Positions 16,723-44,864 of a stretch of DNA of 49,280 bases are shown here, piece by piece. The notes beneath the pieces were generated by a model that was given only the letters and a program-made list of their open reading frames with translations, was not told the origin of the DNA and made no database searches. How positions within the stretch are numbered: the stretch's first letter is position 1; each line of letters opens with the position of its first letter. Origin of the DNA: Lachnospiraceae bacterium (GTDB lineage Bacteria > Bacillota > Clostridia > Lachnospirales > Lachnospiraceae). Made by a program: the position numbers and the translations under genes. The DNA lies in assembly GCA_017524595.1 (NCBI GenBank), contig JAFXVI010000023.1, positions 1 through 49,280 on the forward strand. The letters run 5' to 3'.

Positions 16723-16758
16723 ATAAGTATGTTCACGCCGGATCAGAAAGGAAATAAG

Positions 16759-18003
16759 ATGAGTAAGAAGCGAGTAGTAGTTACAGGAATGGGCGCTATT
16801 ACACCTCTGGGTTTGAATGTGGATGACTTTTGGAGTGGAATAAAGGAAGGAAAGCTTGGGTTTGCGCCTATAACCAGGTTTGATACAACCGAGTATAAGT
16901 GCCATATAGCTGCCGAAGTCAAGGACTTTGATGCGAAAGAGTATATGGACTTTAAGCAGGCCAAGAGAATGGAGGCATTTTCCCAGTATGCTGTTGCTGC
17001 GACAAAAGAAGCAATGGAGGATGCGGGTATTGACATGGAGAAGGAAGATCCGTTCCGTGTGGGCGTTGCCGTTGGTTCCGGGATAGGAAGCCTTCAGTGT
17101 ATCGAACGTGAGCATTCCAAGCTGTTGGAAAAGGGTCCTAACAAGATAAATCCACTGTTCATCCCAATGCTGATAGGTAATATGGCTGCGGGGAACATAT
17201 CTATTACTTTTGGCTTAAAGGGCAAGAGCATAGATGTGGTCACAGCCTGTACCACCGGTACAAACAACATAGGCGAGGCATTCCGTACGATTCAGTATGG
17301 TGATGCTGATATTATGGTAGCAGGCGGATGCGAAGCAGCGATCACACCGATGGGTGTTGCCGGCTTTACTGCACTTACTGCGTTATCTACAGTTGAGGAT
17401 CCGACGAAGTGTTCACTTCCTTTTGATAAGAGGAGAAGCGGATTCGTAATGGGAGAAGGAGCCGGAATAGTCATCCTTGAGGAACTCGAACATGCAAAGG
17501 CCAGGGGCGCTAAGATATATGCTGAAGTTATCGGATACGGCTGTTCGTCAGATGCTTTCCATATAACATCACCGGCCGAGGATGGATCCGGGGCTGCCAA
17601 GGCAATGATAAACGCGCTTAAGGACGGAGGTATTGAACCTTCAGATCTTACATACATTAATGCTCATGGAACAGGAACGCATCATAATGACCTGTTTGAG
17701 ACAAGAGCAATAAAGCTTGCATTTGGTGAGCATGCGAAAAACATTAAGATCAATTCGACAAAATCAATGATAGGCCATCTTCTTGGCGCTGCAGGTGCGG
17801 TTGAGCTTATTACCTGTGTCAAGGAGCTTGAAGAAGGTTATATACATGCAACAGCAGGTTACAGTGAGCAGGATGACGAGATCGACCTTGATTACTGCAA
17901 GGAGCCGGTAGAGAATGCCGATCTTAAGTATGCGATGAGCAATTCGTTAGGATTCGGGGGGCATAATGCATCTCTGCTTATAGCCCGGGTCCCGCAGAGG
18001 TGA
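16759..18003 (+). CDS. fabF: 3-oxoacyl-ACP synthase II
   Basis: A 414-residue condensing enzyme. The thiolase-fold hallmarks are present: the nucleophile Cys164 in [10 protein letters not shown], His303 in [11 protein letters not shown] and His340 in [12 protein letters not shown]. It extends acyl-ACP with malonyl-ACP. The start at 16759 is supported by AAAGGAAATAAG; an in-frame ATG at 16729 lies in the short gap after fabG and adds ten non-family residues. After the second catalytic His loop the sequence has HH where many family members have a small residue plus Pro. The stop overlaps the fabZ ribosome site region. In many Firmicute operons accB follows here; it does not in this window. Confidence 0.96.
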
Positions 18004-18008
18004 ATAGG

Positions 18009-18455
18009 ATGTCAGAAACAAAGAAGGATTTACTTACAGCTAAGGAAATAATGGATATCATCCCGCATCGCCAGCCATTCATGTTGATCGATGCGATAGA
18101 GGAGATGGAAGAAGGAAAGTCAGTCCGGGCAAGGAAGTGTGTGAGCTACAACGAACCGTTCTTTGGCGGTCACTTTCCCGGCGAACCTGTGATGCCCGGA
18201 GTCCTCATTGTTGAGGCGATGGCACAGGCAGGGGCTGTGGCGGTTCTCTCAATGCCCGAAATGAAGGGTAAGACTGCATATTTTGCAGGCATAGATAAGG
18301 CCCGTTTCAAACGCAAGGTAGTTCCGGGCGATATCCTCATTCTCGAAGTTGAGATCACAAAGCTCAAGGGTCCCATCGGGATCGGGCAAGGACGTGCGAC
18401 GGTTAATGGCGAACTTGCATGCAGCGCTGAAATAATGTTTGCGATAGGGAAGTAG
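18009..18455 (+). CDS. fabZ: 3-hydroxyacyl-ACP dehydratase
   Basis: A 148-residue hotdog-fold dehydratase with the FabZ signature [21 protein letters not shown], including catalytic His55 and Glu69, and the N-terminal [12 protein letters not shown]. It removes water from 3-hydroxyacyl-ACP. ATG 18009 is chosen over the GTG at 18000, because AGAGG sits 8 nt before 18009 and the GTG overlaps the fabF stop. The spacing to the carboxyltransferase gene is 18 bp. In related operons accC often follows; it is absent here. Confidence 0.95.
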
Positions 18456-18473
18456 GATAAAAGGAGAAACACC

Positions 18474-20168
18474 ATGTGGCAGGGATTTCGCAGTGCCAAA
18501 AATTATTTTACAATAAGGAATATGAAGCCCGAAGAGGACGTAGTCACCTGTAAGCAGTGCGGCGCGATCCTTAATAAACAGGATACAAGGGATAATAAAT
18601 ACATCTGCGGCAAGTGTGGCTACTATTTCAGGGTCAGAACCCATAACAGACTCAGAATGGTAGCTGATCCTGATTCTTTCGAGGAATGGTTTGCTGATAT
18701 AGAGGAAACAAATCCGCTTGATTTTCCCGGCTATGAAGAAAAGCTTAAGGAAGTGCAGGAAAAAACAGGCCAGAAGGAAGGCATTACCATAGGACGTGCA
18801 ACAATAAACGGTGAACCTGTAGTGCTTGGCGTGTGCGATTCAAGATTCCTTATGGGCTCGATGGGGCATGTGTACGGAGAGAGGATAACGGCCTCGGTGG
18901 AGCGTGCAACGAAGGAGAAGCTTCCCGTAATCCTGTTCTGTTGTTCAGGCGGAGCAAGGATGCAGGAGGGCATTATGTCCCTTATGCAGATGGAGAAAAC
19001 AAGCGCGGCGCTAAAGAGGCACTCGGATGCAGGGCTACTTTATATACCTGTGCTTACCGATCCTACAACAGGCGGCGTTACTGCCAGTTTCGCTATGCTC
19101 GGTGATGTGATTCTCGCTGAGCCGGGAGCGCTCATAGGCTTCGCGGGGCCAAGGGTTATAGAGAAGACGATAGGTGAGAAGCTGCCGGAAGGATTCCAGA
19201 GATCTGAATTCCAGCTGGAGCACGGTTTCGTGGATGCGATCGTTGAAAGAAAGAATCTTAAGAAGACTTTATACAGGATAATCAGGATATATACAGGTAC
19301 GAAGGGTTATGCGAACTTCCTTCCCAGTATGGCTGATAATGCGCAGCCCGAGGAGGTTGCCCGTGAACAGCAGATGAAGTCAAAACCGTTGTCAGCATGG
19401 GAGAAAGTCAAGGCTGCCCGTTCTGTTGACAGGCCTTCAACCCTGGATTATATGGATTTAATATTTGATGATTTCCTTGAGCTTCACGGCGACAGGCTGT
19501 TTAGGGATGATCCGGCTGTTATAGGCGGGATAGCGTACCTTGACGGCCAGCCGGTGACTGTTATAGGTATCCAGAAGGGAAAGGACTTCAAAGAGTGCGC
19601 ATTGCGTAATTACGGGATGTGCTCGCCCGAAGGATACCGTAAGGCGCTACGTCTTATGAAGCTGAGTGAGAAGTTCGGATTGCCGGTCATCACTTTTGTA
19701 AATACATCCGGTGCTTATCCCGGCAAGGAGGCAGAGGAGAACGGACAGGGTGAAGCGATAGCAAGAAACCTTTATGAAATGTCGGCGCTTAAGATACCGG
19801 TCATCTGTATGATGATAGGCGAAGGCGGAAGCGGCGGTGCGCTGGGACTTGCGGTCGGAAACGAAGTCTGGATGATGGAGAACGCCACATATTCGATCCT
19901 TTCGCCGGAGGGATTTTCATCGATATTATGGAAGTCAAGCGACCGGATCGAAGAGGCGGCAGGCGTCATGAAGCTTACGGCAGCCGATCTGAACAGACTG
20001 AACATAGTCGAAAAGATAATACCGGAATACGGCGGAGCCAATGAATGGACTCTGCGTTCGATAGCGATGTTTATGAAGAAAAACTTAAAAGAGTATCTTA
20101 AGGAAAACGCGAATAAGTCAGGTGAAACCTGGGCTAAAGAGAGATACGAAAGGTTTCGTAAATTTTAA
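18474..20168 (+). CDS. accDA: Fused acetyl-CoA carboxylase carboxyltransferase (AccD-AccA)
   Basis: One 564-residue reading frame holds both carboxyltransferase subunits. Residues ~1-285 are AccD (beta): a four-Cys zinc ribbon (Cys26, Cys29, Cys45, Cys48), then the crotonase-fold half with [15 protein letters not shown]. Residues ~305-564 are AccA (alpha), with [37 protein letters not shown] and [11 protein letters not shown]. The N-terminal helical part of stand-alone AccA is shortened at the junction. The pair transfers carboxyl from carboxybiotin to acetyl-CoA, making malonyl-CoA for FabD. AAAGGAGAAA precedes the ATG. No frameshift or stop interrupts the junction, so this is a true fusion and not a sequencing merge that can be seen here. 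accB and accC are not adjacent. Confidence 0.94.
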
Positions 20169-20216
20169 TATATAATAAAGTAAAAGAGATATATAATAAT
20201 ATATAGGAGAATCAGC

Positions 20217-21179
20217 ATGTTAGCAAGGATAGTAGGTACGGGGATGGCACTTCCCGAACTGGTAGTCAGTAATGATGATCTGGCAAAGATCATGGATACA
20301 TCAGATGAATGGATAAGCGAGAGAACAGGTGTCAGGACCAGACATCTTGCAGTAAATGAAGGAACAAGTTCGCTTGCGATAGAGGCGGCCAAGAAGGCGC
20401 TTGATAATGCAGGTGTAGACGCACATGAGCTTGACCTTATAATAGCCGCTACCGTTACCCCGGACAGGCTGCTTCCTTTCCTTTCGGGAGATATACAGGC
20501 CGGACTGGATGCAATGCAGGCAGCAGCGTTTGATATGGTGGTCGGCTGTTCCGGATATCTGTATGCTATCAGTGTTGCCAATGCCTATGTCCAGTCAGGA
20601 ATGTATAAAACGATACTTATCGTTGGAGCCGAGACACTTTCGCGTATAATGAACTGGGAAGACCGTTCCTCCTGTATACTGTTTGGCGATGGTGCCGGAG
20701 CAACTGTCATTAAGGCTGACGAAGTGGGGGTTATCCGTTCTGTACTTGGCACTGACGGCAAGGCAGGTCCTGCTCTTGGCTGTGAGGCAAGACCTTTGCA
20801 GAATCCATATGTCCATAACGAATGGGATTATCCTTATGTAAGAATGGCCGGGCAGGAAGTATACAAGTTTGCAGTAAGGACTGTGCCGAAATGCATTAAC
20901 GAGGTGCTTGATGCGGAAGGGATATCTGCTGATGAGATCAGGTATTATGTGATACATCAGGCCAATCTGCGCATGATAGAAGCCATAGCAAAGCGTCTGG
21001 GACAGCCTATGGACAAGTTCCCTACGTGCATTGAGGAAACAGGCAACGTATCTGCAGCCAGTATACCGATGGTACTTGACAAGATAAACAGAACGGGTAA
21101 GCTTAAAAGAGGAGACAAGCTGGTATTTGCGGGCTTTGGAGCCGGACTTACCTGGGGCGCAAGCGTACTTACATGGTAA
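20217..21179 (+). CDS. fabH: 3-oxoacyl-ACP synthase III
   Basis: A 320-residue initiating condensing enzyme with catalytic Cys111 in VVGCSGYLYA, His247 in VIHQANLRM and Asn277 in ETGNVSAAS. It condenses an acyl-CoA primer with malonyl-ACP to start chains. TAGGAG precedes the ATG. In many Firmicutes fabH opens the operon; here it comes last, 48 bp of very AT-rich DNA after accDA. It may therefore have its own minor promoter, although no clear one could be fixed. A small hairpin follows the stop. Confidence 0.95.
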   Translation: MLARIVGTGMALPELVVSNDDLAKIMDTSDEWISERTGVRTRHLAVNEGTSSLAIEAAKKALDNAGVDAHELDLIIAATVTPDRLLPFLSGDIQAGLDAMQAAAFDMVVGCSGYLYAISVANAYVQSGMYKTILIVGAETLSRIMNWEDRSSCILFGDGAGATVIKADEVGVIRSVLGTDGKAGPALGCEARPLQNPYVHNEWDYPYVRMAGQEVYKFAVRTVPKCINEVLDAEGISADEIRYYVIHQANLRMIEAIAKRLGQPMDKFPTCIEETGNVSAASIPMVLDKINRTGKLKRGDKLVFAGFGAGLTWGASVLTW

Positions 21180-32928: not shown

Positions 32929-33405
32929 ATGTACGCGGCATTATTTATTTTATGGATAATCTTTAACGGAAGGTTTACGCCGGAAGTGGCCGTTATCGGC
33001 CTTATCGTGTCGGCGCTTATCTTCCTATTTATTTGCAGATTCATGGATCACAGCATCAGAAAAGAGAAGATGCTGTATCTTCTTATACCGTGGTTGCTCA
33101 AGTATTTTCTTATACTGATAACAGAGATAATCAAGGCCAATTTTGCAACTGCAGCTTTCGTACTTAATCCCAAGATAGAGGTGGAACCGAAGATAGTGAC
33201 TTTTAAGCCGGATATTCATTACGGCTTTCTTAAAGTAGTGCTTGCGAACTCGATAACGCTGACGCCCGGAACCGTGACAGTGAATATTGAAGACGGTGAG
33301 TATACGGTGCATTGTCTGGATCCTGATCTGGCAACGGATATAGGTGATTCGGTGTTCATAAGGGAGATAATGAAGGCTCAGGACAGGCTCGATAAGGTTA
33401 AATAA
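32929..33405 (+). CDS. mrpE: Mrp/Mbh antiporter subunit E
   Basis: A 158-residue protein with two or three N-terminal membrane helices and a soluble C-terminal domain. NGRFTPEVAVIGLIVS, EIIKANFATAAFVLNP and the LANSITLTPGTVTV segment are hallmarks of MrpE/MnhE (MbhA in archaea). The subunit is part of the membrane arm of Na+/H+ antiporters and related respiratory complexes. It opens the cluster, the place MbhA has in archaeal Mbh operons and unlike Bacillus mrp operons, which start with mrpA. Confidence 0.92.
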   Translation: MYAALFILWIIFNGRFTPEVAVIGLIVSALIFLFICRFMDHSIRKEKMLYLLIPWLLKYFLILITEIIKANFATAAFVLNPKIEVEPKIVTFKPDIHYGFLKVVLANSITLTPGTVTVNIEDGEYTVHCLDPDLATDIGDSVFIREIMKAQDRLDKVK

Positions 33406-33419
33406 CGGGAGAACAGGAT

Positions 33420-33803
33420 ATGAATGCAGCATCAGGGGCGGAAAGTGCCCTTCTTTTGGGAATAATGCTTGTATATGCCGTGCTGGTGGTTTTAGTACTA
33501 ATAAGGGCAGTTGTGGGACCGAGGGTAGCTGACCGCCTGATGGCGATAAATATGATCGGAACTATAGGCATCTTCCTTATGGCAGTGATATCAGTGAGGC
33601 TTAATGAGGACTATCTTCTGGATATCAGCATCATATATGCAATGATAAGCTTCCTCTCTGTAGTGATCCTTACCAAGGTTTATATGGGCGTGCATGAGGA
33701 AAATGTGCTTAAGAAATATAAGATCGAGCGCGAGAAGAAAGAAAGAGAAGAGAGCAGCGGGGACGATGATGAATGGGATAAGCTGCTCAATGGCTTGCAA
33801 TAA
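33420..33803 (+). CDS. mrpF: Mrp/Mbh antiporter subunit F
   Basis: A 127-residue protein with three membrane helices and a charged C-terminal tail (residues ~95-127, rich in Lys, Glu and Asp). The core VLVLIRAVVGPRVADRLMAINMIGT and the following DISIIYAMISFLSVVILTK segment identify MrpF/MnhF (MbhB). The C-terminal cytoplasmic extension is longer than in typical 85-95-residue MrpF proteins. GGGAGAACAGG lies before the ATG. The gap to mrpE is 14 bp. Confidence 0.9.
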   Translation: MNAASGAESALLLGIMLVYAVLVVLVLIRAVVGPRVADRLMAINMIGTIGIFLMAVISVRLNEDYLLDISIIYAMISFLSVVILTKVYMGVHEENVLKKYKIEREKKEREESSGDDDEWDKLLNGLQ

Positions 33804-33824
33804 TGGATTCCCGGGAGAGATCAG

Positions 33825-34160
33825 ATGGAATGGGTAAGATTTACGTTTGCTGCGATTTTTCTTATATTCGCAGCGGTAATGGAAAGCATAGCGGTATTTG
33901 GAGTATATAAGTTCAAGTTCGTGATGAACAGGATGCATGCGGCGGCAATAGGTGATACGCTGGGCCTTATGCTGGGAGCGGTCGGGCTTATCATACTCAA
34001 GGGACTCTCATGGTTTTCGTTGAAGATGGTGATCGTGGTTGTCTTCCTGTGGATGACTTCGGCGATTTCCTCACATGTAATAATGCGTATGGAATACAGC
34101 ATAGATGAAGAGGCAGTCAACGAAGAAACTGAAAAGATGCAGACAGGAGGCACGCAATGA
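33825..34160 (+). CDS. mrpG: Mrp/Mbh antiporter subunit G
   Basis: A 111-residue protein with three membrane helices. GVYKFKFVMNRMHAAAIGDTLG matches the MrpG/MnhG (MbhC) signature, in which the usual Pro-Asp before Arg-Met-His is replaced by Met-Asn. GGGAGAGA precedes the ATG. The last four bases (ATGA) overlap the start of the next gene, implying translational coupling. Confidence 0.9.
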   Translation: MEWVRFTFAAIFLIFAAVMESIAVFGVYKFKFVMNRMHAAAIGDTLGLMLGAVGLIILKGLSWFSLKMVIVVVFLWMTSAISSHVIMRMEYSIDEEAVNEETEKMQTGGTQ

Positions 34161-34468
34161 ATTTTTTCATCCTTATACTTGCATTGTTCCTGACAGTGTG
34201 TGCGATAGCAACATGTATGCATAAGACGCTGCTTACGTCAATCATCATATTTATGGCGTACAGTACGATAATGAGTCTTGTCTGGGCGCTTCTTGAGTCG
34301 CCTGATCTTGCGATAACGGAGGCTGCGGTCGGTGCCGGAGTCACATCGGTGCTGTTTTTTGTAACTCTTAAGAAGATACGGGCAGTGGAGACAACAGAGA
34401 TAGCAGAGGGGAGCGAAGACAAGGAAGAGGCGCGCAAACAGGGTATCGGAGCGGAATATAAAGGTTAA
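34157..34468 (+). CDS. MbhD-like subunit (MrpA C-terminal segment)
   Basis: A 103-residue protein with three membrane helices. The motif ESPDLAITEAAVGAGVTS is the signature of MbhD / DUF4040, which in bacterial MrpA is the first C-terminal extension after the ND5-like part. Here it stands alone, as in archaeal Mbh operons. It overlaps mrpG by 4 bp. The tail after the third helix is charged and variable. Confidence 0.87.
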   Translation: MNFFILILALFLTVCAIATCMHKTLLTSIIIFMAYSTIMSLVWALLESPDLAITEAAVGAGVTSVLFFVTLKKIRAVETTEIAEGSEDKEEARKQGIGAEYKG

Positions 34469-34474
34469 TGCGAT

Positions 34475-35443
34475 ATGAGCAGAAAACGCAGTGACTACAG
34501 GTCAACTTTTTACAGCAGAATAGAGAACTTTGTTAACGGCAAAGAGGAATTCCTTCTGTATAAACCCTCAGGCAATACCGAGGCCAGACAGCTGGAGGCG
34601 CTTGAGGAGGAACTTACGGAAGCAGCCGACCTTTTGGATAAGCGCGAGGCTCAGCAGAGGCTTCAGGACAGCACGGAACCGCTTGATTTTCTGAAGAAGT
34701 TCCACAGGCTGTACGGCATTATAGCAGCCATCATATGCCTTACCATGATGATCCTGCTCATGTCGGCGGTATCATGGCTTCCGCGCTTTGGGAATCCATC
34801 GAATCCGGCTAACAATGAGGTCATAAAGCGTTATATTGAGAAAGGCCAGGAGGAGACAGGAGCAGTTAATATCGTCACAGGACTGATCCTTAATTATCGT
34901 GGTTTCGATACGATGGGAGAGACTCATGTATTGTTTATCGCGGCAAGTTGCGTGATGATCCTGCTTCTTATAGCTGAGGGGGAAGAGAAGAAGTCTAGTT
35001 ATGCATTTGACCGGTATATGGAGCCCAAGAACGATATCATAATCCAGAAGGCTGCTAATTTCATAGTGCCTGTCGTTTTTGTGTTCGGGATATATGTTAT
35101 TTTGAATGGACATTTATCTCCCGGCGGCGGATTTTCCGGAGGCGCTATCATTGGCGCGGGAATGATAATCCATGTTTCTGCGTTTGGCTTTAAGAAGACA
35201 GGCAGGTTCTTTAACGAACACGTGTATAAGGTAGGCAAAGTCAGCGCCCTGTGCTTTTATGTGTGCTGCTTAAGCTATTATTTTTATATGGGTGCGCACG
35301 GATATGACAATCATATACCGCTTGGAACCCCCGGAAATATATTAAGCAGCGGACTCATACTGTTTATAAACATGTTTGTCGGAACTGAAGTGGCATGTAC
35401 CATGTATGCTTTCTATGCGCTGTTTAGGAAGGGAGGATTGTGA
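34475..35443 (+). CDS. mrpB: Fused MbhE-MrpB antiporter subunit
   Basis: A 322-residue protein. Residues ~1-85 are a soluble charged helical extension. Residues ~85-170 form an MbhE-like two-helix segment with GLILNYRGFDTMGETHVLF, equal to the extreme C-terminus of MrpA. Residues ~185-322 are MrpB/MnhB, with LNGHLSPGGGFSGGAIIGAG. The fusion joins two neighbouring Mbh subunits (MbhE and MbhF). The GGGFSGG motif is intact. The soluble N-terminal extension is not typical of the family. The stop overlaps the mrpC start by one base (TGATG). Confidence 0.87.
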   Translation: MSRKRSDYRSTFYSRIENFVNGKEEFLLYKPSGNTEARQLEALEEELTEAADLLDKREAQQRLQDSTEPLDFLKKFHRLYGIIAAIICLTMMILLMSAVSWLPRFGNPSNPANNEVIKRYIEKGQEETGAVNIVTGLILNYRGFDTMGETHVLFIAASCVMILLLIAEGEEKKSSYAFDRYMEPKNDIIIQKAANFIVPVVFVFGIYVILNGHLSPGGGFSGGAIIGAGMIIHVSAFGFKKTGRFFNEHVYKVGKVSALCFYVCCLSYYFYMGAHGYDNHIPLGTPGNILSSGLILFINMFVGTEVACTMYAFYALFRKGGL

Positions 35444-35877
35444 TGTTTGGTCCCAACCTTTTCCATAATGCATTTTCGCTGATATCGGTCATCCTGTTTT
35501 CAATCGGGTTTACGGCGCTTATGCTCCATCGCAACCTGATTAAGAAGATCATAGGATTCAATATAATGGATACGGCCGTATATCTTTTCCTGGCGAGCAA
35601 GGGTTATATTGAAGGACGTAAGGCACCGATCATTGTTGACAACGTGCAAAGTGTAAGTGCATATATCAATCCGATCCCTGCAGGTCTGGTACTTACCGGT
35701 ATAGTCGTGTCGGTATCTGTTACTGCACTTATGCTGTCGATCACGATAAGGCTTTATGAAAGATATCATACACTGGATATAGATGAGATATCGCTGCGTT
35801 CAAGGAAGGATTCACCGGGACGCAGCAAGTATAATAAGACGGTCAAGGATGATGACGATGAGGGGGATACTGCATGA
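35443..35877 (+). CDS. mrpC: Mrp/Mbh antiporter subunit C
   Basis: A 144-residue NuoK-like protein with three membrane helices. The conserved segment INPIPAGLVLTGIVVSVSVTA identifies MrpC/MnhC (MbhG). The start is set at ATG 35443, with GGGAGG 6 nt upstream; a GTG one codon earlier is less likely. A charged, Asp-rich C-terminal tail (KDDDDEGD) follows the last helix. It overlaps the next gene by 4 bp. Confidence 0.9.
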   Translation: MFGPNLFHNAFSLISVILFSIGFTALMLHRNLIKKIIGFNIMDTAVYLFLASKGYIEGRKAPIIVDNVQSVSAYINPIPAGLVLTGIVVSVSVTALMLSITIRLYERYHTLDIDEISLRSRKDSPGRSKYNKTVKDDDDEGDTA

Positions 35878-37367
35878 GTTTTATTGAGAATCTGGTCCCT
35901 CTAAGCATAATCATCTGTCTAGGAGGCGGTATTGCCTGCTCGGCGATCAAAGGGCATGCAGCAAGGCGTCTTACGATCATTCTTTTGTGCGCAGTAACCG
36001 TAATGAGTGCCTGTGTGCTGGCTTATACATTGATCATCGGACACGAATTTGTATATGTGATGGGCAGGTTCCCGGCTCCGTGGGGAAATGAACTCCGGGC
36101 CGGATGCCTTGAGGGCCTTATGGCGCTGTTTTTCTCGATCATCATGCTGCTTTCGATAGTCGGGGGTATCCGCGGACAGAACGATGATATAGCCATTGAT
36201 AAGATGAACCTGTATTTCATCATGATCAATCTCATGATGAGCTCATTGCTTGCCCTGGTATATACCAACGACCTGTTTACCGCATATGTGTTTGTCGAGA
36301 TCAATACGATGGCAGCATGCGCCCTTATAATGATAAGGAATAACGGACATACGCTGGTAGCGGCGACCAAGTACATGATAATGAGCCTGCTTGGTTCCGG
36401 TCTTCTTCTCATCGGTATCAGCATGCTGTATACGATAACAGGCCAGCTTCTCATGCCTAACATCAGGGAAGCGGTTTCAAAGCTTGATGCTTCGGGAGAA
36501 TATGCGGTTCCGCTCACGGTCGTTATCGGACTCATCAGTGTTGCACTCGCCATAAAGAGCGCATTGTATCCATTCCACAGCTGGTTGCCGGAGGCTTACG
36601 GATATTCGACGGCGTCCTCTTCGGCCATACTGTCTTCCTTGGTGAGTAAGGGATATATCTTCCTGCTTATCAAGATCTTTTACAGGGTGATAGGAATGGA
36701 TGTTATGGTGGACCATAAGATCACCAATATACTGTTTATCTTCGGCATCATCGGCATGATCATGGGTTCGGTGACAGCCATAAGACAGAGTGATATACGC
36801 CACTTGATAGCCTATTCATCCATAGCACAGATAGGTTATATCTATATGGGTATGGGACTTGGAAGCACGGCCGGAATGGTAGCGGCGCTCTTTCATATCA
36901 TGAGCCATGGCGCGACAAAATCAATGCTGTTCATTGCGCAGCGCGGTCTTGTCGAGGTATCAAGGCGCAGCAAGAATTTCAGCGATCTTAAGGGTTCGGG
37001 CTACAGGAATAAGCTCGCGGGATTTGCTTTTGCCGTGGGAGCTTTCTCGATGGTCGGCGTACCGCTGCTGTCGGGTTTTACATCCAAAGTGTATTTTGCG
37101 GAGGCGGCAATAACGGCTGTTCATTCAAAGATGTGGATAGCCATGATCACTCTGGCAATAAGTACGATACTTAATGCGATCTATTTCATACGGGCCACGA
37201 TATCCGTTTATACTCCGCGTAATATGGATTACAGGGATCCCGGTTACAAGCCTGCGCAAAATTCAGCGATATCGCTTGTATGTTTTGTAGTACTTAATTT
37301 CTTCCTTGGTATATTGTCGTATCCTATAGCATATACCATACAGACAGGACTTAAGGTATTTCGATAA
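35874..37367 (+). CDS. mrpD: Mrp/Mbh antiporter subunit D (ND2/4/5-type)
   Basis: A 497-residue, roughly 14-helix antiporter-like subunit of the Nqo12-14/MrpD family (MbhH position). The ion-path residues are kept: a membrane Glu in YVFVEINTMAAC, a Lys in LAIKSALYPFHSWLPEAY, a second Lys in LVSKGYIFLLIK and a late Lys in GFTSKVYFAE. It starts inside the mrpC stop (ATGA). It is the first of four such subunits in the cluster. Confidence 0.9.
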   Translation: MSFIENLVPLSIIICLGGGIACSAIKGHAARRLTIILLCAVTVMSACVLAYTLIIGHEFVYVMGRFPAPWGNELRAGCLEGLMALFFSIIMLLSIVGGIRGQNDDIAIDKMNLYFIMINLMMSSLLALVYTNDLFTAYVFVEINTMAACALIMIRNNGHTLVAATKYMIMSLLGSGLLLIGISMLYTITGQLLMPNIREAVSKLDASGEYAVPLTVVIGLISVALAIKSALYPFHSWLPEAYGYSTASSSAILSSLVSKGYIFLLIKIFYRVIGMDVMVDHKITNILFIFGIIGMIMGSVTAIRQSDIRHLIAYSSIAQIGYIYMGMGLGSTAGMVAALFHIMSHGATKSMLFIAQRGLVEVSRRSKNFSDLKGSGYRNKLAGFAFAVGAFSMVGVPLLSGFTSKVYFAEAAITAVHSKMWIAMITLAISTILNAIYFIRATISVYTPRNMDYRDPGYKPAQNSAISLVCFVVLNFFLGILSYPIAYTIQTGLKVFR

Positions 37368-37389
37368 TAGCTTTTGAGGAATGTGATAA

Positions 37390-38694
37390 ATGATCATTTG
37401 GAATCTTACCAAAGATATTCCCATATTGTTCAGAGCAGATGCATTGGGGCTGCTGTTCTTTATACTTACTGTGACAATGTGGGTAATGGATCTGGTATTT
37501 TCAATTGAATATATGAAGCATGAGAAGCATAAGAAAAGATATTATCTTTTCTATGCTCTTACACTTGTTTCGATGGCAGGAGCATGTCTTGCTGGCAATC
37601 TCATAACGATATATCTTTGCTATGAATTCATGTCGATCCTGTCCCTTCCTCTCGTACTTCATGAGCAGACAGATGAAGCACTGGCAGCAGGCAGAAAGTA
37701 TATCTTTTATTCGATAGGAGGAGCATTTACGGGTCTTGCAGGCTTCTTCTTCATATATGTTTATGGAGATACGCTTGACTTTACGCCGGGCGGTGTGCTG
37801 AACATGTCAATGCTTGCTGGACATGAAACAGCCATGCTTATCGTGACCATGCTTGTTATTATCGGATTTGGCTCCAAGGCAGGTATGTTTCCCCTGCATG
37901 CGTGGCTCCCTACGGCGCATCCGGTGGCTCCGTCGCCCGCATCTGCTTTTCTGTCGGGCAATATCACCAAGATGGGCGTCCTTATGATAATAAGGTTCGT
38001 ATATTACCTCGTTGGGCCTGATCTTATCAGGGGGACATGGGTGCAGTATTCGTTCATAGGACTCACACTGCTCACGATCCTTATGGGATCGATGATGGCA
38101 TATAAGGAACCGCTTATGAAGAAAAGGCTGGCATATTCAACAGTCAGTCAGGTAAGCTATGCGTTATTTGGGATCGCGCTTTTAAATCCGGTCGGTCTTA
38201 TCGGCGGACTCATGCACGTTGTTTTCCATTCGCTAGTTAAGAATACGCTGTTCCAGACAGCCGGTGCGGTCATCCATATGACCGGTTTTAAGAAGGTGAG
38301 CGAGTATAAGGATATAGCGCGTAAGATGCCTGTGACGATGTGGTGCTTTACACTTGTATCGCTTACGCTTGTGGGAGTACCTCCGACGAGTGCTTTCTTG
38401 AGCAAATGGTATCTGGCAGAGGCTTCGCTTGGTTCGGGACTTGCGGTCACTTCATGGCTTGGTCCGCTTGTGCTCATAATAAGCGCATTGCTTACAGCAG
38501 CTTACCTGCTCGGTATAACGCTCAAGGCATTCTTCCCGGGTGATGAATATGATTATCCCTGTCTTAATAAGAAAGAGCCCAACCTGTGGATGCTTGTGCC
38601 GATGCTCATTATGACGGTTCTTGCAGTGCTTTTCGGTATATGGCCGGGAGGGATCATGGATATTATCACAGGCATAGCCGGGTCGGTATTATGA
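37390..38694 (+). CDS. Second antiporter-like subunit (MrpD/NuoM-type)
   Basis: A 434-residue polytopic protein of the complex I subunit 4/5 family. It keeps the Glu in YLCYEFMSILSLP, the Lys in GFGSKAGMFPLHAWLPTAHP and the later FLSKWYLAE Lys. It is shorter than most MrpD proteins at the N-terminus, where it begins directly at a helix equivalent to about helix 3. GAGGA lies 9 nt before the ATG. Its exact orthologue (MrpD, HyfF or EchA-like) cannot be told from motifs. Confidence 0.85.
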   Translation: MIIWNLTKDIPILFRADALGLLFFILTVTMWVMDLVFSIEYMKHEKHKKRYYLFYALTLVSMAGACLAGNLITIYLCYEFMSILSLPLVLHEQTDEALAAGRKYIFYSIGGAFTGLAGFFFIYVYGDTLDFTPGGVLNMSMLAGHETAMLIVTMLVIIGFGSKAGMFPLHAWLPTAHPVAPSPASAFLSGNITKMGVLMIIRFVYYLVGPDLIRGTWVQYSFIGLTLLTILMGSMMAYKEPLMKKRLAYSTVSQVSYALFGIALLNPVGLIGGLMHVVFHSLVKNTLFQTAGAVIHMTGFKKVSEYKDIARKMPVTMWCFTLVSLTLVGVPPTSAFLSKWYLAEASLGSGLAVTSWLGPLVLIISALLTAAYLLGITLKAFFPGDEYDYPCLNKKEPNLWMLVPMLIMTVLAVLFGIWPGGIMDIITGIAGSVL

Positions 38695-38718
38695 AATCAG
38701 TAATATAAGGAAATGGAA

Positions 38719-40197
38719 ATGAACAAATTCTGGATACTGCTTCCAATTATATATCCGCTGATCACGGGCGCCATACTTCCGCTGTTCAGATTTAAGGAAC
38801 GAAAGAGCCGTAACATATATACGGAAGTTGTTACGATCATTAATTCCATATTCGTATGGATGCTCCTTACAAATGCACCGGAGGGAACATTCCGCGCCCT
38901 GAACCTTGCGGGCGATCTGGAGATAACGTTTCATATAGACGGCTTAGGTTCCGTGTTCGCAGGACTTGTGTCAGTACTCTGGCCGCTTGCGACTTTATAT
39001 GCGTTTGAATATATGGAACATCTTGGCAAGGAGAACACTTTCTTTGCTTTCTATATAATGACCTACGGCATCACCATAGGTATAGCATTTGCGGCCAATC
39101 TTATGACACTGTATATGTTTTATGAGATGCTGACCCTTGTTACACTGCCTCTGGTAATGGCCGGTATGAGCAGGGAAGCGATAATGGCAGGACGTAAATA
39201 TATACTGTATTCAATGGGCGGCGCTGCCTTCGCATTCATTGGCTTCATATTCATATTTACATTCGGAACCTCAATGAATTTTGTTCCCGGCGGCGTACTT
39301 ACAGGCGCGGGACTGGTAGGAAGGGAGAAGCTCATGCGTTGGGTATATGTGCTTGCCGTAATGGGCTTTGGAGTCAAGGCTGCGATCTTTCCGTTCCATG
39401 GATGGCTGCCTTCGGCATCTATCGCACCTACGCCGGTTACAGCTTTGCTTCATGCGGTTGCTGTTGTAAAAGCAGGTGCTTTTGCGATAATCAGAATCAC
39501 TTATTACAGTTTCGGAGCTGATTTCCTTCACGGGACTTTTGCGCAGTATATTGTAATGAGTTTTGCCATAGTAACGATCGTATATGGTTCGGTAAGAGCG
39601 TATAGGGAGCCGCACTTGAAGCGGAGGCTGGCGTATTCTACCGTGAGCAATCTTTCGTATATAATATTCGGGGCTTCGCTTATGACGCCGCTTGGGCTTA
39701 CGGCGGCACTTTCCCATATGATATATCATGCTGTCGTTAAGATCACGCTGTTCTTCTGCGCTGGCGCGGTTCTATGCAAAACGCACAGAGAGTATGTACG
39801 TGAGCTTGACGGACTGGGAAGAAAGATGCCTGTGACTTTTGCCGCATTTACGATCGGTTCGCTTGCAGTTGTCGGGATACCACCGTTACCCGGCTTTATC
39901 AGTAAATGGAATCTGTGTACCGCCGCCGTAAAAGAAGGGTCGGGATGGGCTTATGCGGGCGTGGCAGCGCTTTTAGTTTCAGCGCTGTTTACGGCTCTGT
40001 ATATGTTTACCATTGTGATAAGGTCGTATTTCCCCAAGGCTGATTTTGATTATAAGACACTGGATGGAGTTAAGGATCCTACCTGGCAGATGTGTCTTCC
40101 GTTTGTTGTATTTGTGGTTATGATCGTGCTCCTTTCCTTTACCGGTTCGCAGCTTATAGGTTATTTTGAAAGTATAGCCGAACTGATGGCGCGATGA
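38719..40197 (+). CDS. Third antiporter-like subunit (MrpA/NuoL-leaning)
   Basis: A 492-residue polytopic protein with Glu in YMFYEMLTLVTLP, Lys in GFGVKAAIFPFHGWLPSAS and Lys in FISKWNLC. The motif TALLHAVAVVKAGAFAI resembles the LHSATMVKAG pattern of MrpA and NuoL, so this may be the MrpA-N-terminal counterpart, with MbhD and MbhE supplied separately upstream. The ATG at 38719 is chosen over 38713 because TAAGGA lies 7 nt upstream of it and only 1 nt from the other. Confidence 0.85.
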   Translation: MNKFWILLPIIYPLITGAILPLFRFKERKSRNIYTEVVTIINSIFVWMLLTNAPEGTFRALNLAGDLEITFHIDGLGSVFAGLVSVLWPLATLYAFEYMEHLGKENTFFAFYIMTYGITIGIAFAANLMTLYMFYEMLTLVTLPLVMAGMSREAIMAGRKYILYSMGGAAFAFIGFIFIFTFGTSMNFVPGGVLTGAGLVGREKLMRWVYVLAVMGFGVKAAIFPFHGWLPSASIAPTPVTALLHAVAVVKAGAFAIIRITYYSFGADFLHGTFAQYIVMSFAIVTIVYGSVRAYREPHLKRRLAYSTVSNLSYIIFGASLMTPLGLTAALSHMIYHAVVKITLFFCAGAVLCKTHREYVRELDGLGRKMPVTFAAFTIGSLAVVGIPPLPGFISKWNLCTAAVKEGSGWAYAGVAALLVSALFTALYMFTIVIRSYFPKADFDYKTLDGVKDPTWQMCLPFVVFVVMIVLLSFTGSQLIGYFESIAELMAR

Positions 40198-40230
40198 TCG
40201 CATCAGTAAGTATTTTGAGGTATTTGTAAT

Positions 40231-42393
40231 ATGCTTCTTGCATTATGCATCGGCCCGATGGCCGCAGGGATAATCGCATATTTTACAGGACGTGTCAGTA
40301 AGACGGCAAGGGATTATTTTGCTGATGTGGTAACTGTCCTTGAAATCGGACTGTTAATACATGTATCGTATCTGTTCATAAACGGGCAGCAGGTAGCGTT
40401 TTGTGCAAACAAGCTGTGCGGTCTTGGAATAAACCTTAAGCTTGACGGATTTCGTATCATATATGGTCTCGTCGCAGCATTTATGTGGGCTATGACTACA
40501 ATATTCTCGCGGGAATATATGGCGCATTATCCAAGGACCAACAGATATTATATGTTCTTTCTGATGACGCTCGGAGCAACAGTCGGAGTGTTCCTCTCGG
40601 CTGATCTGTTCACCACGTTTTTGTTCTTTGAGATCATGTCGTTTACAAGCTATACCTGGGTGGCGCATGATGAGACCAGGGAATCCCTGCGCGCGGCAGA
40701 GACTTATCTTGCCGTGGCGGTGATAGGCGGAATGATCATGCTGATGGGGCTGTTCCTTATGTACAGTATTACGGGAACACTTAAGATGGATGAACTGTTT
40801 ACGGCAGTTACGGATGCTCTTAATGCAGATCCATCACTTAAGGGAAGGGTTTATACAGCCGGCGCCTGTATGCTTATAGGTTTTGGGGCAAAGGCAGGTA
40901 TGTTCCCTCTTCATATCTGGCTTCCGAAAGCTCATCCTGTAGCACCGGCACCCGCTTCCGCACTGCTGTCGGGAATACTTACAAAATCCGGTATCTTCGG
41001 AGTGCTTGTTATAAGCAGCGAGATATTCCTTCATGATAAGGGCTGGGGATTTATGATCCTTATCCTCGGTGTGATAACAATGTTTGGCGGTGCACTGCTT
41101 GGTCTTTTCAGTATAAACATTAAGAGGACACTGGCCTGTTCTTCCATGTCACAGATAGGCTTTATACTGACAGGAATAGGCATGCAGGGACTTCTTGGTG
41201 AAGAAAATGCGCTTGCGATAAGGGGTACCGTACTCCATATGATAAATCATTCTCTAATCAAGCTTACGCTGTTCATAGCTGCAGGTGTTATTTATATGAA
41301 CCTTCATGAACTGGATCTTAATAAGATACGGGGTTTTGGCAAGGGTAAGAAGCTGCTTATGATCTCTTTCCTTGTGGGAGGCCTTTCGATAAGCGGTATT
41401 CCGGGATTTTCGGGATATGTGAGCAAGACACTCCTGCATGAATCAATAGTTGAATATATGAATGAACTGCAGGGAACAGCAGCTTATGGCACATACAAGT
41501 TTATAGAAGCCGTATTCCTGATAACAGGCGGCATGACTCTTGCATATATGACGAAGCTGTTTGTGGCAGTATTTATAGAAGATACGGCTGGAAATGCACA
41601 TGATCTTAGTGGATTGGCAGATGCAGAAGGTATTTATCCTGATCCTGAAGCTCCGGAAGGTTCCGACGGACATAAAGAAAGCGGAATCACTTATATGAAC
41701 GGACAGAGTGCTTTTACGCTTACCGCATCAGCAGCGGTGCTGCTCGTCCTTGGTATCTGTCCGTATAGGCTGATGGATAGGGCAGCATCCTTTGCCGGCT
41801 CTTTCATGCATGGACAGGAGCTTAATGAAAATGTGGATTATTTTGCTTTTTCCAATCTTAAGGGCGGTATCATATCCATAACGCTGGGAGTGCTGATTTA
41901 TTACTTCGTTATAAGAAAACTTCTGATGCATAAGGACGAAGAAGGCAATAACGTATATATCGATGCGTGGCCGGGGTGGCTGGATGTTGAAAACCTGATA
42001 TACAGACCGCTGCTCCAGCACATAATCCCGTTCATGCTTGCGTTTGTATTAAGGATATTTGACAGGATGGCCGATCACATCATTTCGCTGCTTAGCCGTA
42101 CACTTTTGCGCGAGGTTGAGCCAAGACGTCCGCTGCTGTATGGTAATATCTTTACACGCGCGCTAGGTGTGATTATGGACAGGTTTGTGGTAATATTGAA
42201 TAAGACGGTACGCAGGAAGAACCCCAGATATATCAATTATGAGCAGAAGCTCGCATTTGGGTTTGAAGAGGTGCTTAAGACCTCGAGGCTCACGTCAAGA
42301 AGCGTTTCCTTCGGACTGATGATGTTCAGTATCGGATGTATATTTACATTGATCTATCTGATAGTTATGCTGCTTATCCACGTAAGATCGTAA
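40231..42393 (+). CDS. Fourth antiporter-like subunit with long C-terminal extension
   Basis: A 720-residue protein. The first ~490 residues form an ND5-like core with Glu in FLFFEIMSFTSYTWV, Lys in GFGAKAGMFPLHIWLPKAHP and a late Lys in GYVSKTLLHE. About 230 more residues follow: a soluble acidic loop (~residues 455-485), further helices and an amphipathic charged region near residues 570-690, ending in a last membrane helix. Such an extension recalls the lateral helix and extra helices of NuoL. It is the last subunit of the cluster and the largest. The TPR-DUF4037 gene follows after 12 bp. Confidence 0.87.
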   Translation: MLLALCIGPMAAGIIAYFTGRVSKTARDYFADVVTVLEIGLLIHVSYLFINGQQVAFCANKLCGLGINLKLDGFRIIYGLVAAFMWAMTTIFSREYMAHYPRTNRYYMFFLMTLGATVGVFLSADLFTTFLFFEIMSFTSYTWVAHDETRESLRAAETYLAVAVIGGMIMLMGLFLMYSITGTLKMDELFTAVTDALNADPSLKGRVYTAGACMLIGFGAKAGMFPLHIWLPKAHPVAPAPASALLSGILTKSGIFGVLVISSEIFLHDKGWGFMILILGVITMFGGALLGLFSINIKRTLACSSMSQIGFILTGIGMQGLLGEENALAIRGTVLHMINHSLIKLTLFIAAGVIYMNLHELDLNKIRGFGKGKKLLMISFLVGGLSISGIPGFSGYVSKTLLHESIVEYMNELQGTAAYGTYKFIEAVFLITGGMTLAYMTKLFVAVFIEDTAGNAHDLSGLADAEGIYPDPEAPEGSDGHKESGITYMNGQSAFTLTASAAVLLVLGICPYRLMDRAASFAGSFMHGQELNENVDYFAFSNLKGGIISITLGVLIYYFVIRKLLMHKDEEGNNVYIDAWPGWLDVENLIYRPLLQHIIPFMLAFVLRIFDRMADHIISLLSRTLLREVEPRRPLLYGNIFTRALGVIMDRFVVILNKTVRRKNPRYINYEQKLAFGFEEVLKTSRLTSRSVSFGLMMFSIGCIFTLIYLIVMLLIHVRS

Positions 42394-42405
42394 GGGATGT
42401 AGATA

Positions 42406-44163
42406 ATGGACATAGAAGAAGTATTAAAAGAACTGGATTCATTGCCCGGCGGAGAAAATTCCCAAAAGACGGGTGAATTTATCGAGGATAAGATCCGGCT
42501 AGCACATGAAGAAGGAGACAGTTCCGCCGAGCTTACCCTGATCAATGAGATGATCGGCTATTGCAGGTATACAGGCAGGCATGATGACTCGAAAAAGTAC
42601 GGTGAAGCCGCGCTTTTATTGTGTAAGGAGCAGGGCCTTTACGGACAGCTTCCGTATGCGACCACACTTCTTAATTTTGCAACAGCTGACAGAGCTGCAG
42701 GAAGATATGAAAAATCATTGGCCCGTTACAAAGAGGTCATGGAAATATATAACCGGCTGCTTAATGATGACGACTATCTGTATGCGGCTCTGTATAACAA
42801 TATGAGCCTGTTGTATCAGGAAACAGGCAGGAATGAAGAGTCGGCGGAATATCTTAAGAAAGCACTGGATGTGATAAGCGGTATTGATGAACGTCGCGTC
42901 GAGCAGGCGATAACCCTTACCAATCTCGGGCAGGCATATATCAGATGTGAAAGATATGATGACGCGGCAGACAAGCTGGAGATGGCAGAGGACATATTTG
43001 AGGAACTGGGAGGAGATGATTTCCACTATCCGGGATGTTTAAATGCGATCGGGCAGCTGAATTATCTGAGAAATGAATTTCCATCAAGTGTCAGGTATTA
43101 TAAAAAGGCGCTTAAGCTTCTCAAACGACACGTTGGCGAAGATAATCCGGCCTGCATGACAGTGCTAGATAATCTTAAGCAGGCAGAGAATAAGCTTGAT
43201 GGCGGAAAAGATACTCATGAAGAGGTTCCGGATGTTGACGGGATAACCCTTAGCAGGAAATTTTATGAGGAATACGGACGTCCCATGATATATGAGAAGT
43301 TCCGTGAATTTAAGGATTGCATGACGGTCGGGCTTGCAGGCCGGGGATCGCAGTGTTACGGCTTTGATGACGATCTGTCGAGAGACCATGATTTTGGTCC
43401 CGATTTTTGCATATGGCTTGATGATGATGTGTACGATGAGATCGGGGATTCACTGCAAAAAGCGTATGATGACCTTCCGTCTGAATATATGGGATATAAA
43501 CGTGTGACCTCTATCCCGCCTGACGGAAAACGTGTGGGAGTTATACGGACGAAAGAGTTCTACAGCAGGATACTTGATATAGAGGAAAACAGACTGGTTG
43601 AGTTCATGGATACAGAAGATCCGGGAATCATATATGATTTCTTTGCATCAGTAAAGGAAGAAAATCTTTCACAATGCACTAACGGATGTTTGTTTGGTGA
43701 GGGGCAGGATGATTTTATTAAGCTCAGAAATAAATTGTCCTATTATCCGGATACTTTGTGGAAGCGGAAGATTGCCGAGGAACTTCATTATTCGGCTCAG
43801 ATGGGACAGTACAATTACATAAGGATGCTTAAGCGCGGCGAGAAGGTTGCTTCCGAAATAGCGCTTGCAGGATATATGGAGCATACGATGAAGCTGGTTT
43901 ACCTGATAAACAGGAAATATGCACCGTACTATAAATGGCTGCACCGCGGTATGGCTGACCTTGAAAAAGCGGCGGTCATTATGGATATTTTTAATGCTGT
44001 GTATGATATGCCCAAGGGTGATGAACGCATAAGGATGACGACCGAGATTGTAGCGGGTATAATAATTGAAGAACTGGAGAGAATAGGAATGGCGGGGAAT
44101 GTACCGCCGCAGGAAAGGTTTCTGGATGTATATTCACAGGTTATCAATAAAAGTACATTATAG
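42406..44163 (+). CDS. TPR protein with DUF4037 (nucleotidyltransferase-like) domain
   Basis: A 585-residue soluble protein. Residues ~1-260 hold about five tetratricopeptide repeats (for example YAALYNNMSLLYQETGRNEE and AITLTNLGQAYIRCERYDDA). Residues ~285-585 match DUF4037, whose opening GLAGRGSQCYGFDDDLSRDHD carries closely spaced Asp residues like a nucleotidyltransferase metal site. The biochemical role of DUF4037 is not known to me; a minimal nucleotidyltransferase is suspected from the fold family. AAGGGA precedes the ATG. The gene is 12 bp from the antiporter cluster and 14 bp from DUF4125, so it is likely on the same transcript. Confidence 0.8.
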   Translation: MDIEEVLKELDSLPGGENSQKTGEFIEDKIRLAHEEGDSSAELTLINEMIGYCRYTGRHDDSKKYGEAALLLCKEQGLYGQLPYATTLLNFATADRAAGRYEKSLARYKEVMEIYNRLLNDDDYLYAALYNNMSLLYQETGRNEESAEYLKKALDVISGIDERRVEQAITLTNLGQAYIRCERYDDAADKLEMAEDIFEELGGDDFHYPGCLNAIGQLNYLRNEFPSSVRYYKKALKLLKRHVGEDNPACMTVLDNLKQAENKLDGGKDTHEEVPDVDGITLSRKFYEEYGRPMIYEKFREFKDCMTVGLAGRGSQCYGFDDDLSRDHDFGPDFCIWLDDDVYDEIGDSLQKAYDDLPSEYMGYKRVTSIPPDGKRVGVIRTKEFYSRILDIEENRLVEFMDTEDPGIIYDFFASVKEENLSQCTNGCLFGEGQDDFIKLRNKLSYYPDTLWKRKIAEELHYSAQMGQYNYIRMLKRGEKVASEIALAGYMEHTMKLVYLINRKYAPYYKWLHRGMADLEKAAVIMDIFNAVYDMPKGDERIRMTTEIVAGIIIEELERIGMAGNVPPQERFLDVYSQVINKSTL

Positions 44164-44177
44164 AGGAGTAGAAGATT

Positions 44178-44864
44178 ATGTCAGAGATCAACTTGAACAG
44201 CAACCTGAATTCGTGTATTATAGGCAACGTGCCAAATAATGGAGTAAAGGCGGTCAACAGCGCCCGCGATGCTGTGAATGAGATAGTGATGCTTGAGTGG
44301 CAGGCATTTGATAAAGTACAGAATGAAGGTGGACGCGCATCCTGTCAGGATGACTGGCCGACGTTTTCCATAATGAGGCAGAGTCAGTATGATACTTGGA
44401 CTGATGAAATGCTGGAATCATATATAGATGATTTTTATTCAGCCAATGAACAGGGATGGAATCTGATAACAGAGAAATATGCCCGTATGGAAGAGAGTAC
44501 GGCACCGGAGGAATATCTAAAGATCAAGGATGCACTGCCTCCGGTAAGTGACACCAAGAAGGCGATCGTTGACCAGATAGCAGATATCCAGGTCGGATGG
44601 ATGGAAGAATTCGCCCTTAAGTATCCCAAGGCAGCAGGCAATGCAAGGAAAATACATTCATCCGAGGATACGCCTGTTGATACATCTTATGAGACGTACC
44701 TCAGAGGTGAGATCATGACTTATTCTGACAGGACACTGGCGTTGTACGGACAGTTCATTGTCAAGCTTGCAGGCATGGGTAAGAATCTGGCATTTATGAT
44801 CATGGATAATACGGCACGTGCATACGGCTATGAGGGACTGGATGCGCTGGAGGCCAGTCTGTGA
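44178..44864 (+). CDS. DUF4125-family protein
   Basis: A 228-residue soluble protein with the family features EIVMLEWQAFDKVQNEGGRASCQDDWPTF (shown in pieces: EWQAFDKVQNEGGRA, CQDDWPTFSIMRQSQ), EKYARMEESTAPEEY and the C-terminal GKNLAFMIMDNTARAYGY. The role of DUF4125 is unknown. It starts 14 bp after the DUF4037 gene with GAGGAG upstream. DUF4037 and DUF4125 next to each other suggest a joint function; this is inference. Confidence 0.8.
   Translation: MSEINLNSNLNSCIIGNVPNNGVKAVNSARDAVNEIVMLEWQAFDKVQNEGGRASCQDDWPTFSIMRQSQYDTWTDEMLESYIDDFYSANEQGWNLITEKYARMEESTAPEEYLKIKDALPPVSDTKKAIVDQIADIQVGWMEEFALKYPKAAGNARKIHSSEDTPVDTSYETYLRGEIMTYSDRTLALYGQFIVKLAGMGKNLAFMIMDNTARAYGYEGLDALEASL

Follow-up and report, generated by a model that had tools for sequence, protein, structure and literature searches.

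The 49,280-nucleotide stretch of Lachnospiraceae DNA analysed here (contig JAFXVI010000023.1, called the window) carries on its forward strand, at positions 32929-42393, a ten-gene operon for what is probably an Mrp-type cation/proton antiporter, free-standing and without a redox role, that has four antiporter subunits (called AP1 to AP4). Judged from its sequence, the operon is likely to represent a group 3 Mrp antiporter enlarged to a set of four channels. Group 3 Mrp systems without mrpA and with several mrpD genes are already known (PMC8415708; papers are cited here for what their accessible parts state), and the four-channel, redox-free form would be an enlarged version of them. Four antiporter subunits are a type of the family and not a peculiarity of the window's operon, other lineages having reached the same number differently, and the fourth channel derives from an old tandem duplication of a middle MrpA/NuoL-like subunit. 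Neither a publication describing a redox-free four-antiporter Mrp as standard in a large bacterial family nor a description of this same cluster type with a known function, which the original prediction made from the DNA alone had reckoned with, was found in an open-licence library from which most subscription papers are absent; what has been published is the broad class.

All ten open reading frames (ORFs) score above the Pfam gathering cut-offs for the expected families, in the order MNHE, MrpF_PhaF, PhaG_MnhG_YufB, MbhD, MbhE+MnhB, Oxidored_q2 and four times Proton_antipo_M, and neighbouring ORFs overlap or are separated by short gaps. The operon opens with an MrpE/MbhA-like subunit (32929-33405; 158 aa; PF01899, E 3e-30) in which the ITLTPGT motif is conserved, an MrpF/MbhB-like subunit (33420-33803; 127 aa; PF04066, E 2e-13) with a conserved DR pair, and an MrpG/MbhC-like subunit (33825-34160; 111 aa; PF03334, E 4e-18). 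These are followed by an MbhD subunit (34157-34468; PF13244, E 2e-19) that matches positions 623-715 of the MrpA profile TIGR00940, by a fusion of MbhE with MnhB/MrpB in a single ORF (34475-35443; 322 aa; PF20501 and PF04039), the MbhE part of which shows invariant R142, D145, G148 and E149, and by an MrpC/NuoK-like subunit (35440-35877; 145 aa; PF00420, E 1e-20). The four antiporter subunits, all matching PF00361, are the MrpD/MbsH-like AP1 (35874-37367; 497 aa; E 2e-55; E142, K228, K259, K405), AP2 (37390-38694; 434 aa; E 4e-52; E79, K163, K194, K339), AP3 (38713-40197; 494 aa; E 2e-53; E138, K222, K253, K398) and AP4 (40231-42393; 720 aa; E 6e-56; E134, K221, K252, K399). AP3 has a helix VIII of the MrpA/NuoL type (LLHAVAVVKAG), and AP4 bears a long C-terminal extension, the terminal element of which is the last membrane helix. 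MbhD and MbhE+B are encoded by separate ORFs, and Pfam assigns no MbhD/E domain to AP1-AP4. The Pfam labels thus bear out the order E-F-G-MbhD-(MbhE+B)-C-antiporter and the four antiporter subunits of the original prediction; its absence of redox genes was confirmed as well, no hydrogenase, FeS or NuoH gene being present among the ten ORFs.

The ten-gene order recurs far beyond chance, and the cluster is a conserved Lachnospiraceae type. In a sample of 150 Lachnospiraceae genomes, one per genus code and including the window's own, an antiporter-type protein was present in 47 and the four-subunit set in 28, namely side by side in 26, split over two contigs in one (G098), and in the window's own genome. 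Among the 27 family loci examined (own genome excluded), 24 show the exact ten-gene order, counting G098, in which AP4 is split over two contigs; locus L042 is truncated by a contig end. Two loci contain the four antiporter genes without E, F, G and MbhD in front (L038, genome G034) or without E, F and G (L054, G124), which may reflect loss, relocation or misassembly. From a collection in which 84,980 species are represented by a single genome each, the best 80 of at least 554 confirmed matches were kept; the exact order was found in 67 of these 80 loci, and the remaining 13 end no more than 400 bases from a contig end. The closest among the matches listed are two Lachnospiraceae assemblies (L109 and L110), with 82-83% identity in the MbhE+B protein; on this ground the phylum is taken to be Bacillota. 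No conserved neighbour gene was detected: of the 111 loci, some of which have short flanks, 20 contain the commonest flanking family, an upstream gene that is presumably trmB. The ten genes were taken as the unit. AP1-AP4 are the only antiporter-type subunits found in the window's own genome, a 1.73 Mb assembly that is 60% complete. Divergent Mrp clusters also occur within the family, with three antiporter subunits in L062 (G094) and one in L073 (G079).

The channel residues were compared in an alignment of 398 antiporter proteins, the window's four included, each at least 421 aa long and scoring above 500 bits. The Glu of transmembrane helix (TM) 5 and the Lys residues of TM7 and TM12 are present without exception in AP1 (103/103), AP2 (101/101), AP3 (99/99) and AP4 (95/95), and the TM8 Lys in 394 of the 398 proteins, the four exceptions being Asn, all in AP3. 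The claim that all four subunits retain the membrane Glu and Lys residues of the proton path holds for the window, the four of which carry the channel Glu and Lys that serve as a criterion for group 3 Mrp, and for the alignment apart from the four Asn in AP3. A helix VIII His, by contrast, occurs in every AP3 (99/99) and in no AP1 (0/103), AP2 (0/101) or AP4 (0/95), and since it is confined to AP3, the operon appears to hold one MrpA-type and three MrpD-type channels. The helix VIII stretch has been described as conserved in NuoL and MrpA only (PMC4938563). In MrpA the His was proposed to act as a switch together with Ser146 and Thr306, and the H248A mutant does not support salt-tolerant growth (PMC9568556); in AP3, the counterpart of Thr306 is Thr in 99 of 99 proteins and that of Ser146 is Thr in 96 and Ser in 3. 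By sequence, AP3 carries the residue set of the putative MrpA His switch. The long C-terminal extension sits on AP4, whereas the His-type helix VIII sits on AP3.

In a careful tree of 55 rows, AP2 and AP3 of the Lachnospiraceae type (12 rows each) form sister clades (support 100/99) that nest in the clade of middle subunits, the other 11 rows of which all have a His-type helix VIII. Constraining AP2 to group with the 11 His-less middle subunits was rejected in the approximately unbiased (AU) test (p 6e-5), and constraining AP3 to group with the other His-type rows, AP2 excluded, was rejected more weakly (p 0.015); the groups for both constraint tests were chosen after the trees had been seen. 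From these trees it follows that a single His-bearing middle gene was duplicated and that the AP2 copy no longer has the His and is one residue shorter in helix VIII. Recent decayed duplicates, the outcome that would have spoken against the original prediction, were rejected: the duplication behind AP2 and AP3 is old and neither copy has decayed, the pair being found in 28 of 150 genera with its channel residues kept and its sister clades supported at 100/99. A wider tree of 104 antiporter proteins separated AP1, AP4 and the middle subunits into distinct groups across clusters of the phylum, with E. coli NuoL/M/N, HyfB/D/F and MrpA/MrpD outside the close groups; support is below 80 on 39 of its 101 inner branches, and the placement of several reference rows, which sit on long branches, is unsure.

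The MbhE+B fusion profile was run against 398 genomes of the phylum, of which 137 matched; among the matches listed, many are separate MbhE and MnhB pieces. Thirty-eight other loci, picked mainly from the better matches and not at random, contain three antiporter subunits in 20 cases, four in 5, two in 11, one in 1 and none in 1; five of the 11 two-subunit loci are ordinary MrpA+MrpD operons, one (L202) is cut at a contig end, and the locus with none is cut too. Two of the five four-subunit loci, L211 (with AP4 cut) and L212, are of the Lachnospiraceae type, and L225, L227 and L215 arrived at four otherwise; L225 and L227, from two other families, combine one His-type with three His-less subunits and have a differently derived extra subunit. 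L211 (G218) and L212 (G496) represent two families of the phylum other than Lachnospiraceae, in which the cluster was possibly acquired by transfer. The three-antiporter mrp clusters of other families (e.g. L190, L194 and L213) share the gene order and have related AP1, middle and AP4 subunits, but contain a single middle subunit in place of the AP2/AP3 pair and encode MbhE and MrpB as separate ORFs in 15 of 20 cases.

Among solved structures, sequence comparison places chain H of MBH closest to AP2-AP4 and chain H of MBS closest to AP1, which matches chain H of MBH as well, and the next relatives include MrpA and MrpD chains. The MbhA-H module of archaeal MBH and MBS is homologous to the operon, which differs in lacking a hydrogenase or sulfur-reductase module and a NuoH-type anchor. 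Hydrogenase 4 likewise places the His-type helix VIII (HyfD) and the long C-terminus (HyfB) on different subunits, as in AP3 and AP4, but has the catalytic HyfG and HyfI within its operon. The enlarged complex I of Chadwick et al. 2018 (as cited by PMC7419157 and PMC9040806) and the forms 2M, green and Complex_I_3, with four or five ion-pumping subunits, also contain extra antiporters (PMC9040806), but enlarged complex I is a redox enzyme and the operon has no redox arm. The stand-alone Mrp of P. furiosus (mrpEFGBB'CD, group 3) is arranged like the operon as E-F-G-(MbhD/E, B)-C-D without mrpA or redox genes (PMC8415708); it has one antiporter subunit, not four, and fuses MbhD to MbhE, whereas the operon fuses MbhE to MrpB. 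Ca. Nitrospira alkalitolerans has a group 3 Mrp in which two NuoM/NuoL-like genes, interpreted as additional mrpA/mrpD-like genes, come after mrpD; the system differs in being described as mrpA-G, with nhaB and bicA in the region, and is likened here by its description only (PMC7784846).

Group 3 Mrp has been defined by the lack of mrpA, at least one mrpD-like gene and homologues of MrpB, C, E, F and G (PMC8415708), and the Pfam matches of the operon, which include homologues for every Mrp function, agree with this definition. An alternative definition asks for every Mrp subunit in an irregular gene order (PMC5703873); measured against it, the order is not mrpABCDEFG and intact MrpA is absent, its parts being spread over the AP subunits, MbhD and MbhE. 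Three other assignments were rejected: group 1 or 2 Mrp of the Bacillus type, as there is no mrpA-first operon with a fused MrpA and the order is E-F-G-MbhD-EB-C-AP; MBH or MBS, as the required hydrogenase or sulfur-reductase module and the MbhM/NuoH anchor are not in the operon; and complex I or F420H2 dehydrogenase, as PF00146 and PF00346 each occur in just two of the 27 cluster genomes tested (NuoB and NuoI were not searched).

The c subunit of a Na+-type ATP synthase is marked by Gln or Glu in helix 1 and by Glu-Thr/Ser in helix 2. By this signature, the F-type c subunit of the window's own genome (L247; GIGPGVGQG...LGQAVAETTG) would be of the Na+ type. With any copy counted, 26 of the 28 genomes that carry the cluster, the window's own among them, have a Na+-type c subunit, against 18 of 28 genomes without it (Fisher p 0.02); with the best-scoring copy alone the figures are 24 of 28 and 14 of 28 (p 0.009). 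The controls are family genomes taken in listing order, not at random, and the p values ignore kinship. Copies left unread were counted as negative, as were G149 and G123, in which only other types were read. A two-carboxylate form of the c subunit has also been described (PMC3692424).

For a putative complex of the ten proteins we propose a Na+ module made up of E, F, G, MbhD, MbhE+B and C, on which AP1 would dock as MrpD does; AP2 and AP3 would come next, and AP4, bearing the C-terminal extension, would sit at the distal end as a cap, as MrpA or NuoL does. Protons entering via this row of subunits would drive Na+ outwards, or the exchange would run the other way, with AP3 holding the histidine switch and AP1, AP2 and AP4 acting as relays. 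In the least certain step, the added relay subunits would increase how many H+ are exchanged per Na+, and a weak proton gradient could then sustain a Na+ gradient for a Na+-type ATP synthase. We infer an H+/Na+ exchange that serves the sodium economy, maybe at a raised H+/Na+ ratio. The most specific version, that a duplicated MrpA-type subunit turned relay yields one switch and three relays, and hence a low-gear converter that moves at least three H+ per Na+ and charges the Na+ gradient for a Na+-type ATP synthase in gut fermenters with a weak proton gradient, is put forward tentatively and is rather doubtful.

Several observations weigh against this picture. The link to the Na+ ATP synthase is modest, a lead, and the transported ion could be K+. 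A Pro of MrpG, present in 99 of 104 homologues, is Ala in the window and Ala or Ser in L109, L110, L111 and L112; if this residue, matched by motif, is Pro81 of Bacillus pseudofirmus, it is the position at which the P81A exchange abolished antiport and left Na+ tolerance intact (PMC5703873). The AP4 extension does not follow subunit number in its length: it spans 109-193 residues across 94 proteins of the Lachnospiraceae type, 93-242 across 13 clusters with three subunits and 52-248 across other clusters with four, and NuoL has 103. Three of the three-antiporter clusters (L190, L194 and L217) have the helix VIII His in none of their subunits, and six further loci carry the same His-less middle subunit; the His-type switch is therefore not obligatory in every such complex, and the switch step of the proposed mechanism is weakened. 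The failure to find NuoH-type PF00146 and PF00346 in the window's own genome is a weak absence at 60% completeness. That genome encodes one Rnf-type protein (PF03116), which counts in favour of the antiporter reading, but Rnf, which the original prediction had listed among the things to search for, shows no specificity for the cluster (26/27 cluster genomes vs 34/39 other family genomes).

The original prediction had left a choice between an unusually large secondary antiporter and the membrane arm of a modular enzyme, and the findings favour the former. Complex I-type enzymes require an anchor of the NuoH/EchB/MbhM type. In a test of 27 cluster-bearing genomes, each at least 90% complete, PF00146 (NuoH/EchB) was found in two (G008 and G138) and PF00346 (49-kDa/hydrogenase large subunit) in the same two, leaving 25 of the 27 with no such partner; in both genomes the hits belong to a separate Ech hydrogenase that has its own single antiporter subunit and lies on a different contig from the cluster. 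A redox pump of the Mbh, Mbs, Ech or complex I type with its redox part encoded elsewhere would explain the MBH/MBS-like gene order and sequences, and the incomplete own genome leaves room for it there, but it is very improbable given the two genomes with a separate Ech and the sensitivity of the large-subunit search, which recovered 4 of 4 Ech-positive genomes (NuoB-type, NuoI-type and unrelated redox arms were not searched).

Two further explanations concern the build and the cargo. The ten genes might serve two complexes that share one set of small subunits, for instance AP1 and AP4 with AP2 or AP3 in alternation, as the two are sister duplicates and 20 of the 38 other loci manage with three antiporter subunits; this is unlikely, because both copies are kept with their channel residues and in fixed order in 28 of 150 genera, and the consistent helix VIII difference suggests different places in one row. 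DAB-type systems move bicarbonate/CO2, and a complex of the same build might carry K+, Ca2+ or bicarbonate/CO2 in place of Na+. Some Mrp systems transport K+ or Ca2+ (PMC5703873), and the MrpG Pro is lost in the window's lineage, but the remaining Na+-module motifs are kept, no conserved partner gene adjoins the cluster and a Na+-type c subunit accompanies it in 26 of 28 genomes, so that another cargo seems improbable. The motifs kept in the small subunits, matched to Bacillus by motif, are TP in MrpE, DR in MrpF, PGGGF in MrpB and R..D..GE in MbhE.

The antiporter with four channels bears on the series coupling of antiporter subunits, an open question for both Mrp and complex I. Related redox-free clusters with one to four antiporter subunits exist naturally, their number changing by duplication; an H+/Na+ ratio that rises with subunit number would be direct evidence that each subunit has a proton path of its own, and a constant ratio would be evidence that some subunits act as relays only. 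The AP2/AP3 pair is a natural conversion of an MrpA/NuoL-type into an MrpD/NuoM-type subunit and offers a test of the proposed histidine switch. Found in 28 of the 150 genera sampled, the operon is common among gut Lachnospiraceae.

The AP2 of the window is about 58 N-terminal residues shorter than most homologues and lacks the first two helices, in which it resembles the shortened ND2 of animal complex I. Short AP2 proteins (434-443 aa against a median of 497) were found in the window, L109, L110, L113, L155, L168, L170 and L058; these lengths rest on mechanically called starts, and the N-terminal loss was inspected in the window, L109, L110 and L058. The predicted model of AP2 shows the antiporter core fold (pLDDT 90), with chains of MrpD and MbhH as best matches, and the best PDB matches of the AP4 model (pLDDT 82) are MrpA chains. 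A lateral-helix insert has been linked to the fourth subunit in complex I (PMC9040806); as a mark of the fourth subunit it was examined here, and its lengths overlap between classes.

A promoter scan yielded 22 hits against 22.8 expected, i.e. chance level, and 11 terminator-like elements were found against 8.0 expected. Downstream, a TPR+DUF4037 gene begins 12 bases after the AP4 stop and is followed by a DUF4125 gene (42406-44864); in the scanned loci L035-L074, no ORF has either of these as its top label. Upstream, at 15066-21176, lie fatty acid synthesis genes for an acyltransferase, a ketoacyl synthase, an ACCA-domain carboxyltransferase and a ketoacyl synthase III. In three-antiporter clusters of other families (L190, L191, L194, L198, L216, L217 and L224), tandem repeats of about 22 residues occur in variable number between TM15 and TM16 of the AP4-type extension; inspected by eye, the repeat reads FDSSINDAYEKSGxVAR or similar and has a different sequence in L217.

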